Source of the DNA: Chitinophagaceae bacterium
GTDB lineage: Bacteria > Bacteroidota > Bacteroidia > Chitinophagales > Chitinophagaceae
DNA: 64,000 bases
NCBI GenBank assembly: GCA_947452965.1
Contig: CANGEW010000007.1
Span: 1-64,000 of the forward strand
Direction of reading: 5' to 3'
Numbering within the stretch: position 1 is the first letter of the stretch; every line of letters starts with the position of its first letter. This document shows, piece by piece, positions 28,421 through 62,653 of the stretch. The position numbers and the translations under genes are program-made. The notes beneath the pieces were generated by a model. It was not told where the DNA came from. It worked only from the letters and a program-made list of their open reading frames with translations, and searched no databases.

Positions 28421-28498
28421 GGGAGCTTAGCTCAGTTGGTTTAGAGCATCTGCCTTACAAGCAGAGGGTCACAGGTTCGACTCCTGTAGCTCCCACCA
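28421..28498 (+). tRNA. tRNA-Val (anticodon TAC), CCA encoded
   Basis: Acceptor GGGAGCT/AGCTCCC, anticodon loop CTTACAA, T-arm ACAGGTTCGACTCCTGT, ACCA end. Confidence 0.95.
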
Positions 28499-28537: not shown

Positions 28538-28561
28538 TTTCCACTATTGGTACTCTTATTC

Positions 28562-28641
28562 CTATGTTCGTCTTATGACCAACATAGATTTCCTTTCTTC
28601 GCCCTATGTTTTTGGTGACAACATTAATAACGCCTCGAAAT
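28562..28641. repeat. Twin-hairpin REP-like unit 1 (degenerate)
   Basis: ctatgttcgtcttatgaccaacatag...ttcttcgccctatgtttttggtgacaacattaataacgcctcg. Confidence 0.75.
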
Positions 28642-28696
28642 AGTCCTGACTTGTAGAGACTGTTGCTTAAGACCAAATCTTCTTATTCTTTTTATT

Positions 28697-28776
28697 TCCT
28701 CAATTGGTCTTATGACCAATTGATATTATTTTCTTCGCCCTATGTTGTTGGTGATGACACCAACAACGGCTCAGAA
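28697..28776. repeat. Twin-hairpin REP-like unit 2
   Basis: tcaattggtcttatgaccaattga...ttcttcgccctatgttgttggtgatgacaccaacaacggctcagaa. Confidence 0.9.
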
Positions 28777-28837
28777 GCTAAGTTTTAATTTGAGAGTATT
28801 GCTATACAGATTAAAGCTTCTTGTTCTTATTTATTTC

Positions 28838-28916
28838 CTCTGATGGTCTTATGACCAACAGAGGGTGTCTTTCTTCGCCTTATTTTATTGGTGAAAACAC
28901 CAACAACGGCTCAGAA
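28838..28916. repeat. Twin-hairpin REP-like unit 3
   Basis: ctctgatggtcttatgaccaacagag...ttcttcgccttattttattggtgaaaacaccaacaacggctcagaa. Confidence 0.9.
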
Positions 28917-28954
28917 AATACCATTTAAGTAGGGCTAATTTACTTTTCAAGAGC

Positions 28955-29503
28955 TTGATTTCTATGATTTCTTTTGCAAAAAAAATGGAAAACTATCCAA
29001 TACATTGGCCCCAATTTTATACTGCTACAATTCTAGAATGGAAGCCATTATTAATTTCAAATACAAATAAGTGGATTATTATTGATAGTCTTCGATATTT
29101 GACACAATCAAAAATTGTAAAAGTATATGCATTAGTAATTATGAGTAACCACATTCATTTGATTTGGCAACCTATGTCTTCATATACTCCTAAAAAAGTT
29201 CAACATGTTTTTTTAAAATATACTGCACAACAAATGAAGTTTGGATTGATAGCTTCGGATAGTCCTTTTTTGAAAGAATATAGAGTGAATTCCAAGGACA
29301 GAGAATATCAGTTTTGGAAAAGAAATTCATTATCGATTGAAATATTTACACAAAAGGTATTCATTCAAAAGCTAAATTATATCCACCAAAATCCGGTAAA
29401 AGCAAAGATGGTTAAACATTCGATTGATTACTATTTTTCTTCAGCCAATTTTTATGAGAATGGTATTGATCCGTTTGGTATACTTACGGATTATTTTCTT
29501 TAA
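28955..29503 (+). CDS. REP-associated tyrosine transposase (RAYT; Y1/IS200-like, HUH superfamily)
   Basis: VYALVIMSNHIHLIWQP (H-x-H), VFLKYTAQQMK, KLNYIHQNPVKAKMVKHSIDYYFSSANFY (catalytic Tyr and YIHQNPVKA motif). Confidence 0.9.
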   Translation: MISMISFAKKMENYPIHWPQFYTATILEWKPLLISNTNKWIIIDSLRYLTQSKIVKVYALVIMSNHIHLIWQPMSSYTPKKVQHVFLKYTAQQMKFGLIASDSPFLKEYRVNSKDREYQFWKRNSLSIEIFTQKVFIQKLNYIHQNPVKAKMVKHSIDYYFSSANFYENGIDPFGILTDYFL

Positions 29504-29520
29504 ATTTTCTTTCCTTTCCT

Positions 29521-29616
29521 CTGTTGGTGCTCTTATTCCCCTGTTGGTCTTCTGACCAACAGTGATTGTTTTCTTCGCCTTATGTTGTTGGTAAATACAC
29601 CAACAACGGCTCAGAA
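29521..29616. repeat. Twin-hairpin REP-like unit 4
   Basis: cctgttggtcttctgaccaacag...ttcttcgccttatgttgttggtaaatacaccaacaacggctcagaa. Confidence 0.9.
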
Positions 29617-29726
29617 AAGCAAAGATGGTTAAACATTCGATTGATTACTGTTTTTCTTCAGCCAATTTTTATGAGAATGGTATTGATCCGTTTGGTATAC
29701 TTACGCATTATTTTCTTTAAATTTTC
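29614..29726 (+). pseudogene. Duplicated 3' fragment of the RAYT gene
   Basis: aaagcaaagatggttaaacattcgattgattactgtttttcttcagcc...cttacgcattattttctttaaattttctttc; near-identical to about 29402-29514. Confidence 0.9.
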
Positions 29727-29734
29727 TTTCTGAA

Positions 29735-29816
29735 GTTCGTGGTTGGTCTTATGTCCATCAGAGATTTCTTTTCTTCGCCTTATGTTGTTGGTGAGAATAC
29801 AAACAACGGCTCAGAG
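29735..29816. repeat. Twin-hairpin REP-like unit 5
   Basis: gtggttggtcttatgtccatcagag...ttcttcgccttatgttgttggtgagaatacaaacaacggctcag. Confidence 0.85.
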
Positions 29817-29883
29817 GCTAAATCTTATCCTGTGAGTATTGCCATACAGATTTAATATTCTTGTTATTCTTTATTTTCTTTCC

Positions 29884-29980
29884 TCTGTTGGTGCTCTTAT
29901 TCCCCTGTTGGTCTTCTGACCAACAGGGATTGTTTTCTTCGCCCTATGTTGTTGGTGAGAATACCAACAACGGCTCAGAG
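29884..29980. repeat. Twin-hairpin REP-like unit 6
   Basis: cccctgttggtcttctgaccaacaggg...ttcttcgccctatgttgttggtgagaataccaacaacggctcag. Confidence 0.9.
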
Positions 29981-30051
29981 GCTAAATTTTATCCTGTGAG
30001 TATTGCCATACAGATTTAATATTCTTGTTATTCTTTATTTTCTTTCCTTTC

Positions 30052-30146
30052 CTCTGTTGGTGCTCTTATTCCCCTGTTGGTCTTTTGACCAACAGGGATT
30101 GTTTTCTTCGCCTTATGTTGTTGGTGAATACACCAACAACGGCTCA
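30052..30146. repeat. Twin-hairpin REP-like unit 7
   Basis: cccctgttggtcttttgaccaacaggg...ttcttcgccttatgttgttggtgaatacaccaacaacggctca. Confidence 0.9.
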
Positions 30147-30147
30147 A

Positions 30148-31053
30148 TTAATCTTTTAATAATCGAACTGAAAAACCATTTCCTTTCAGTCTAGTGTTTT
30201 TTGAAATATTTGTGGTAGAATTATGAATCACTCTAGGCCATGCGTATGATTGATCAACAGGTGTTGAAGTCCAGAATTCACCATATTCTCCAATAACAGT
30301 AAATAAGAGTGTATTGATGTTTCTAAAGCCGCCTGGCAGAGCTGTAAATTGACTTGAATTTGTCGCTCCAATATTTGGAGCTATCCAATATCTTGTACCG
30401 GTATCTTTTAATTTTCCGCCCATTAATGTACTTTGAATGCATTCGTAACATGTAGTGTCAGCAGAATTATCCAAGCACTTTATCATTGAATTCCAATCTG
30501 AATTTGAAGACACATGCCATCCTAATGGAGCCAATCCTCTTGGGTCATTTACTGCATACCAATTATATAATCTGCCATATACCGAACCATAAGTAGCACT
30601 ATCATTATTATACCAGCACCAAGCACCAGTGGTTAGGTTTGCCCATTGAGTGGAGTCTGTTACCTGAGGTATAATATCTCCATTACGATATCTTGATACA
30701 TCTAGGTTTTTTGCAGTCCAAGTTTGATTACAGATTTTTACAGTTGGATAACTATGCCCATCAATGTCAGTTAATAATGTTGTGTCAATAGTTCCACAAA
30801 ATACATTCTGCCATTTTCCTAGTACAAACATTTGTAAACAATTTGAACTTGTGTTAAAAATTTGCAAGCCCGCCGCTGGGTTATTAATAGAATCTCTTTG
30901 AATTGATGTCATTCTGGGAGGTAAAAAACCACTATTGTTGGAAGATACTTCCAACTTTGCAGATGGGTGAGGGGTGTTGGTTCCTATTCCCACATTTTGC
31001 GAAAAGGAGTGAAATGAGCAAAACAATAAAACGACAATGGAGAGGTGTTTCAT
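30148..31053 (-). CDS. Secreted FISUMP (Fibrobacter succinogenes major paralogous) domain protein
   Basis: Signal peptide; NVGIGTNTPHPSAKLEVSS...GFLPPRM; TDIDGHSYPTVKICNQTWTAKNLDVSRYRNGD...YGRLYNWYAV...GWHVSSNSDWNSM...LPGGFRN...FWTSTP...GFSVRLLKD. Confidence 0.88.
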   Translation of the reverse strand: MKHLSIVVLLFCSFHSFSQNVGIGTNTPHPSAKLEVSSNNSGFLPPRMTSIQRDSINNPAAGLQIFNTSSNCLQMFVLGKWQNVFCGTIDTTLLTDIDGHSYPTVKICNQTWTAKNLDVSRYRNGDIIPQVTDSTQWANLTTGAWCWYNNDSATYGSVYGRLYNWYAVNDPRGLAPLGWHVSSNSDWNSMIKCLDNSADTTCYECIQSTLMGGKLKDTGTRYWIAPNIGATNSSQFTALPGGFRNINTLLFTVIGEYGEFWTSTPVDQSYAWPRVIHNSTTNISKNTRLKGNGFSVRLLKD

Positions 31054-31159: not shown

Positions 31160-31330
31160 TCATTTACTTTTCAAGAATCTTAATTCTTTGGTTTGTTTTG
31201 CAAAAAATGGGAAAAGATCTAACGAATTGGAGCCAATTAATATATTATAAGCTATTTAGATTAGAAGCCATAATCGTTATTAAGTGCAATTGAATATATA
31301 ATCTTTGATATCTTTCGATGCATAAAAATG
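31160..31330 (+). pseudogene. Decayed 5' portion of a second RAYT copy
   Basis: atttacttttcaagaatcttaattctttggtttgttttgcaaaaaatgggaaaa...ttagaagccataa aligns with 28938-29100. Confidence 0.7.
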
Positions 31331-32307: not shown

Positions 32308-32345
32308 CTTGCCACTGTTGATCTTATGACTAACAGGATTGACTT
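32308..32345. repeat. Degenerate REP-like hairpin remnant
   Basis: ctgttgatcttatgactaacag resembles hairpin 1 of the array. Confidence 0.55.
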
Positions 32346-62301: not shown

Positions 62302-62653
62302 TATTAAAATGTATTGAAATGATAAGATACTGCAATATAATTAAATGTTTTGAGTCGTACTTTCTAAAAAGTAAAAATTAACGATTGGGTTGGTTTGTCA
62401 AGACAAACTTAAAAACCATATTTAATTGATGGTTTAGTGCGTGTCGACAAGAATTTGGTGATTTTTTTTCATAAGGCTGGAATATCGAAATAAGTTCATG
62501 TTAAATAGTTTCTTCAAGATTTGTTATTTAAAATAATTCAAATACTTTTGTGTTGTCTATTTTTGATAAGTAAATCATATTGGTTATTCTTGGTTACTAT
62601 ATCGAATTCATTGAAAAGAGATTATTATATTCTATCAAATTGAATTAATACAC

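Follow-up and report, generated by a model that had tools for sequence, protein, structure and literature searches.

A RAYT gene within an array of inverted palindrome pairs with a (C)GCC foot in a Chitinophagaceae genome

To our knowledge, the biochemistry of REP-associated tyrosine transposases (RAYTs) rests on two Proteobacteria groups that read GTAG. In Pseudomonas, two inverted REPs form the spreading unit, termed REPIN. A Bacteroidota group had previously been recorded with atypical structures, spotted by eye. According to the text of PMC6006769, the RAYTs of subclass 2.6, equivalent to group 5 of Bertels and colleagues, come mostly from Bacteroidetes, carry NH[LIV]H and YIH[QN]NP motifs and an SS extension, show a median HuH-Y distance of 82, and are flanked by atypical secondary structures devoid of GT[AG]G, copies of which lie elsewhere in the genome. 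CGTC-tagged REPs, present in some Bacteroidetes, are reported to have no associated transposase (PMC3733652).

Here we analysed a stretch of 64,000 nucleotides (hereafter the window), located on contig C7 of a 2.34-Mb Chitinophagaceae genome (93 contigs, 87% complete), for which an original prediction had placed a RAYT gene among seven related palindromic units beside a tRNA-Val gene.

An intact RAYT gene within an array of two-hairpin units

The open reading frame, the tRNA-Val gene and the seven units were all recovered from the sequence at the positions predicted for them (Table 1). The array, spanning nucleotides 28560 to 30143, consists of seven two-hairpin units, three upstream and four downstream of the RAYT gene, all running in the same direction, and its last unit stops some 4 bp short of a FISUMP stop codon. 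The spacer motif TTTCTTCGCC..TATGTT occurs seven times in the window, always inside the array, and a 101-nt unit used as query retrieved the seven units at E values of 5e-19 to 2e-47, the next matches in the genome being at 9e-6 or weaker; the seven units are therefore not a chance occurrence. The RAYT locus holds 14 palindromes, 11 of which a covariance model matched at E below 0.1; the model's top match in the whole genome is the minus-strand REP of unit 2. A search against Rfam matched only the tRNA, and a search against PHROGs gave no significant match.

Table 1. Positions, within the window, of the RAYT gene, the array units and neighbouring features
Feature	Position	Strand	Remarks
tRNA-Val(tac)	28421-28498	+	Adjoins the array; no sign of taking part
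REPIN unit 1	28560-28639	+	REP 28560-28586 on +; degenerate REP 28608-28634 on -
REPIN unit 2	28697-28775	+	Weak REP 28697-28723 on +; REP 28744-28770 on -
REPIN unit 3	28836-28915	+	REP 28836-28862 on +; REP 28884-28910 on -
RAYT (REP-associated tyrosine, Y1 HuH transposase)	28985-29503	+	172 aa from ATG
REPIN unit 4	29537-29615	+	REP 29537-29563 on +; REP 29584-29610 on -
Duplicated RAYT 3' end (116 nt)	29615-29730	+	Parent 29398-29513, 2 differences; between units 4 and 5
REPIN unit 5	29740-29815	+	First hairpin degenerate; REP 29784-29810 on -
REPIN unit 6	29901-29979	+	REP 29901-29927 on +; REP 29948-29974 on -
REPIN unit 7	30070-30147	+	REP 30070-30096 on +; REP 30117-30143 on -
FISUMP-domain gene	30148-31053	-	Adjoins unit 7
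Remnant of the 5' end of a second RAYT	31162-31274	+	Frame disrupted; 73% identical at the DNA level to the RAYT start and the stretch upstream of it
Dispersed decayed single REP of the array family	32311-32337	+	Intergenic; covariance model

The RAYT is intact, with all catalytic residues present. Its HuH motif reads N-H-I-H, the catalytic tyrosine (Tyr132) lies in YIHQNP, and Trp111 and a C-terminal SSA motif are in place; all residues invariant among 27 aligned sequences, including the HuH, Trp, Tyr and SSA, are retained. The TTG at 28955 proposed by the ORF finder is a less likely start than the ATG at 28985, where the alignment of relatives begins. The NCBIfam model REP_Tyr_transpos matched the protein at E 5e-20 (71.9 bits, against a curated cut-off of 80 bits), while the match to Pfam Y1_Tnp was sub-threshold. 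As phmmer found no match among PDB sequences, we turned to fold comparison. The AlphaFold2 model (pLDDT 93.5) has as its top PDB match 4ER8, the E. coli RAYT bound to its REP hairpin (E 8e-9, TM 0.64-0.67, 19% sequence identity), followed by the ISDra2 and IS608 transposases. Along with the repeat-transposase linkage in relatives reported below, the family match, the fold and the intact catalytic residues bear out the RAYT and REP identities originally proposed.

The genome contains one intact copy of this gene, and its sole paralogue, 39% identical, has another repeat upstream. This RAYT-like paralogue (C4:119411-119911; L033 2894-3565, minus strand) has lost the first catalytic histidine (NRIH) and the NP of the tyrosine motif. 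Seven copies of the different palindrome, GTGCGTGTCGACACGAAA, stand upstream of it at 46-nt spacing. This palindrome has 21 sites genome-wide, one of them in the window (62437-62454), and is nearly confined to the host species. Elsewhere it forms pairs on the same strand, 109-163 bp apart, and the sequences enclosed by these pairs are mostly unrelated.

Opposed hairpins with covarying stems and a (C)GCC foot

Each unit is made of two opposed hairpins, hairpin 1 being read from the plus strand and hairpin 2 from the minus strand, on the basis of the covariance model, the asymmetry of the loops, and a sister array on contig C1, in which both GCC feet are intact. The model reads a plus followed by a minus REP in 6 of the 7 window units, unit 5 having no recognisable plus REP and units 1 and 2 each having one arm that is only weakly read, and it does so in all four units of the sister array (C1:137517-137935), where the feet are better kept than in the window. 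The units are thus REPINs, i.e. inverted REP pairs. That all units share one orientation, as originally noted, holds for the units themselves but not for their hairpins, which alternate.

The RAYT genes of 29 relatives were also examined. Sites combining the foot and the adjoining arm occurred within 500 bp of the gene at 27 of the 29 loci, versus 1.7 loci in shuffled sequence, which served as the control for this count (a CCG control pattern was discarded, since it overlaps the true foot). Upstream of the gene, 28 such sites lay on the plus and 5 on the minus strand; downstream, the numbers were 6 and 28, respectively (Fisher p = 2.8e-8), indicating that the feet face away from the RAYT gene. 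A tRNA lay beside the gene in only 2 of the 29 loci, so that tRNA adjacency is not a general trait, and the tRNA was rejected as an integration site.

In the 30 closest RAYT loci, the footed hairpins share one design: the foot 5'-(C)GCC is followed by three bases that vary, the arm GTTGGTG, a loop mostly of 4-5 nt, the arm CACCAAC, and three bases complementary to the variable ones. In 21 of these loci, 68 footed hairpin readings were obtained. Within the stem, 94.7% of cells are paired, a value biased upward because the alignment was built from hairpin matches; 34 cells are double-changed, compared to 9.7 in shuffles, and the covariation score is 0.304 versus 0.097 for shuffled and at most 0.10 for slid versions. 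The stronger evidence for the stem is that the closing pair and the three outer pairs have changed on both sides.

The foot of these REPs is GCC in place of the canonical GT[AG]G; in the window, that of hairpin 1 is worn to TTCC. When every tetranucleotide preceding any hairpin of at least 8 bp was counted, with no motif chosen beforehand, CGCC ranked first in the clade of the window's RAYT (25 of 57 loci, versus 6 of 57 for GTAG or GTGG), whereas it was not prominent in the second Bacteroidota RAYT clade. Several loci with close RAYTs (L060, L061, L064, L077, L078 and others) display the same foot and arms with a loop of about 22-32 nt, and the class of loop appears to go with the particular lineage of RAYT.

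Dispersed copies, clade-specific linkage and alternative readings

With the covariance model at E below 0.1, about 28 distinct REPs were found at 8 places in the genome, all intergenic: the RAYT array, position 32311 of the window, two places on contig C1, and one each on C18, C43, C12 and C4. Copy number is low, most copies lying in two arrays, a pattern short of wide dispersal. With the same REP at seven places outside the array, including 32311-32337, the locus is not self-contained as had been thought. In the host family, where RAYT relatives are present in 171 of 299 genomes, the exact pattern reaches up to 85 copies per genome. At least four hairpins were counted in 66 of the 171 RAYT-bearing genomes and in 11 of the 128 RAYT-less genomes (OR 6.7, p 1.7e-9; counts that ignore shared ancestry); in the latter 11, the RAYT may have been lost or left unassembled. 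A member of the same genus with a complete, single-contig genome (G246) harbors 12 hairpins, mostly GTTGGTCAGGCGACCAAC, and no RAYT at E 1e-10; these are either orphan REPs or belong to a more distant RAYT.

The original prediction had proposed an HMM or covariance-model search combined with a check of co-occurrence with RAYT homologues. Among independent named loci, all from Bacteroidota, the covariance model revealed REPs at 22 of the 30 with a RAYT of roughly 40% identity or higher, a set that includes Chitinophaga, Mucilaginibacter, Taibaiella, Terrimonas and Winogradskyella, and at only 1 of the 50 with more distant RAYTs. The tree of 108 RAYTs falls into two clades, split at 100% support. 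In the 56-row clade, which holds the window's RAYT, 47 members are REP-flanked; in the 52-row clade, only 7 are, many of them probably by chance. The repeat is neither widespread in genomes lacking the transposase nor absent from RAYT-bearing relatives, the two outcomes that had been named as speaking against the proposal.

This clade-specific linkage bears on a first alternative, which we consider quite unlikely, namely that the hairpins serve mainly to terminate transcription of the converging FISUMP and RAYT genes or to stabilise the 3' ends of their mRNAs, the RAYT being a chance neighbour. All 8 REP places in the genome are indeed intergenic, and three of them are no more than 125 bp away from the 3' end of a FISUMP gene. 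However, the same footed hairpin surrounds RAYTs across genera and families, with feet outward on both sides, while it is absent around the more distant RAYTs and those of the other clade, apart from the few loci counted above; moreover, none of the relatives' RAYT loci yielded a FISUMP gene, and the hairpins have no T-run following them. The linkage thus largely refutes this reading, with a secondary role of the hairpins in termination being possible.

The FISUMP (Fib_succ_major) genes with nearby REPs are 3 of the genome's 7 (window 30148-31053, L023 4007-4912 and L024 2131-2871), the distance from the 3' end being about 4-124 bp. This proximity is partly a matter of paralogy: the C1 array starts where the flank of the paralogous FISUMP gene on C20 runs on without REPs, the first 71 bp of 3' flank being 94% identical and the REPs being present only on C1. 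Given this paralogy and the relatives' loci, FISUMP was rejected as a general partner of the repeat.

It is quite improbable that we are dealing with a mobile element of the IS200/IS605 type, or the remnant of one, that moves as a whole and is bounded by the hairpins. The enzyme is of the same superfamily, 12 of the 27 aligned members also match the transpos_IS200 model, and both a duplicated RAYT tail and a RAYT relic are found nearby. Yet REP_Tyr_transpos matches all 27 members, and far better than IS200 does; the genome has just one intact copy and the 39%-identical paralogue, in place of the several near-identical copies of an insertion sequence; hairpins are also found without the gene; and the palindromes flanking the relatives' genes are inverted with feet outward, unlike IS200/IS605 ends, which are on the same strand.

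That the array is part of a diversity-generating retroelement acting on the C-type-lectin-like FISUMP gene, with the hairpins as target-site cruciforms, is highly improbable and was rejected: papers on such retroelements mention Fib_succ_major domains and REPs do lie at the 3' end of the three FISUMP genes listed above, but the FISUMP link is partly due to paralogous duplication, the hairpins of relatives accompany RAYT genes and not FISUMP genes, and the one reverse transcriptase that the genome (87% complete) yielded lies on C13, with no template repeat at its locus matching any of the seven FISUMP genes. That reverse transcriptase (C13:16140-16676; L108) is a PF00078 match (E 1.5e-20) within a 351-aa frame.

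A probable REPtron and its relation to known systems

Overall, the locus is very probably a REPtron, that is, a chromosomal RAYT gene together with the REP palindromes on which it would act; the steps of cleavage, strand transfer and copying are inferred from other RAYTs, among them E. coli TnpAREP. The RAYT can most likely both cut its REPINs and spread them. As a Y1 HuH endonuclease, it would most likely bind single-stranded REP hairpins, such as might form on the template of the lagging strand, and recognise both the GTTGGTG stem and the (C)GCC foot on its 5' side. By analogy with those enzymes, its tyrosine would cut beside the foot and then rejoin the ends, whereby REPINs would be copied or rearranged into new intergenic places, with the RAYT gene staying put. 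The seven REPINs probably arose by local amplification of one pair together with its AT-rich spacer.

Traces of past activity are in line with such a REPtron. The 116-nt copy of the RAYT tail begins exactly at the edge of the unit 4 REP (GGCTCAG/AAAAGC), which in foot orientation reads TTTT/CTGAGCC, i.e. the joint is at the CT beside the foot. The cuts made by E. coli TnpAREP fall at CT, on the 5' or the 3' side of its REP (PMC8266576), so this joint is consistent with enzyme action, short of proof. A simple tandem duplication is insufficient to account for the tail copy, since units 4 and 5, which follow the two tails, differ from one another. Taken together, the duplicated tail at the REP edge and the RAYT relic point to past activity.

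What is new here is a clean, clade-wide target signature, comprising foot, stem, spacing and orientation, that is valid across several families. As the tag is GCC in place of the classical GTAG, the target of the enzyme is directly testable, and the REP consensus can readily serve as substrate in binding and cleavage assays, as well as being a probe with which such repeats can be counted in thousands of genomes. More tentatively, one large Bacteroidota RAYT clade may use a separate recognition code, with the (C)GCC guide replacing GT[AG]G and being read with the near-invariant GTTGGTG stem, a proposal that we rather doubt than favour. If it were true, the (C)GCC guide would set a different cleavage dinucleotide, and the rule of cut-site choice could thus be tested by swapping feet between the codes.

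A RAYT class with atypical REPs in Bacteroidota is already known (PMC6006769), and its relatives, as counted above, are common in the host family; of the little-described system originally announced, it is therefore the target signature, and not the class, that is new. A GCC foot is not stated in the literature searched, which included the main text of PMC6006769. As far as that text describes subclass 2.6 (group 5), the window's RAYT fits it in its motifs, its SS motif, its phylum, its atypical flanking REPs and its dispersed copies, and differs in the HuH-Y distance, which is about 77 in its clade versus the median of 82, a comparison made with the text description. The second Bacteroidota clade, which has a HuH-Y distance of 85 and lacks GCC-footed REPs, may form the core of subclass 2.6.

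Three further systems can be set beside this locus: (i) the CGTC-tagged REPs (PMC3733652) are likewise short hairpins with a C-rich 5' tag, whereas here the tag is (C)GCC and a RAYT is adjacent; (ii) the Pseudomonas REPINs, associated with a group 3 RAYT (PMC3116915), share the inverted REP pair as unit, but here copies number tens and not hundreds, and the unit is longer, with an AT-rich spacer and a local tandem array; (iii) E. coli TnpAREP and its BIMEs (group 2; 4ER8) have in common with this locus the fold, the HuH-Y1 core, the inverted REP pairs around the gene and a tetranucleotide foot 5' of the hairpin, that foot being GTAG in E. coli and (C)GCC in the clade described here, and while the E. 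coli REP needs a bulge, the hairpin of this clade is usually perfect.
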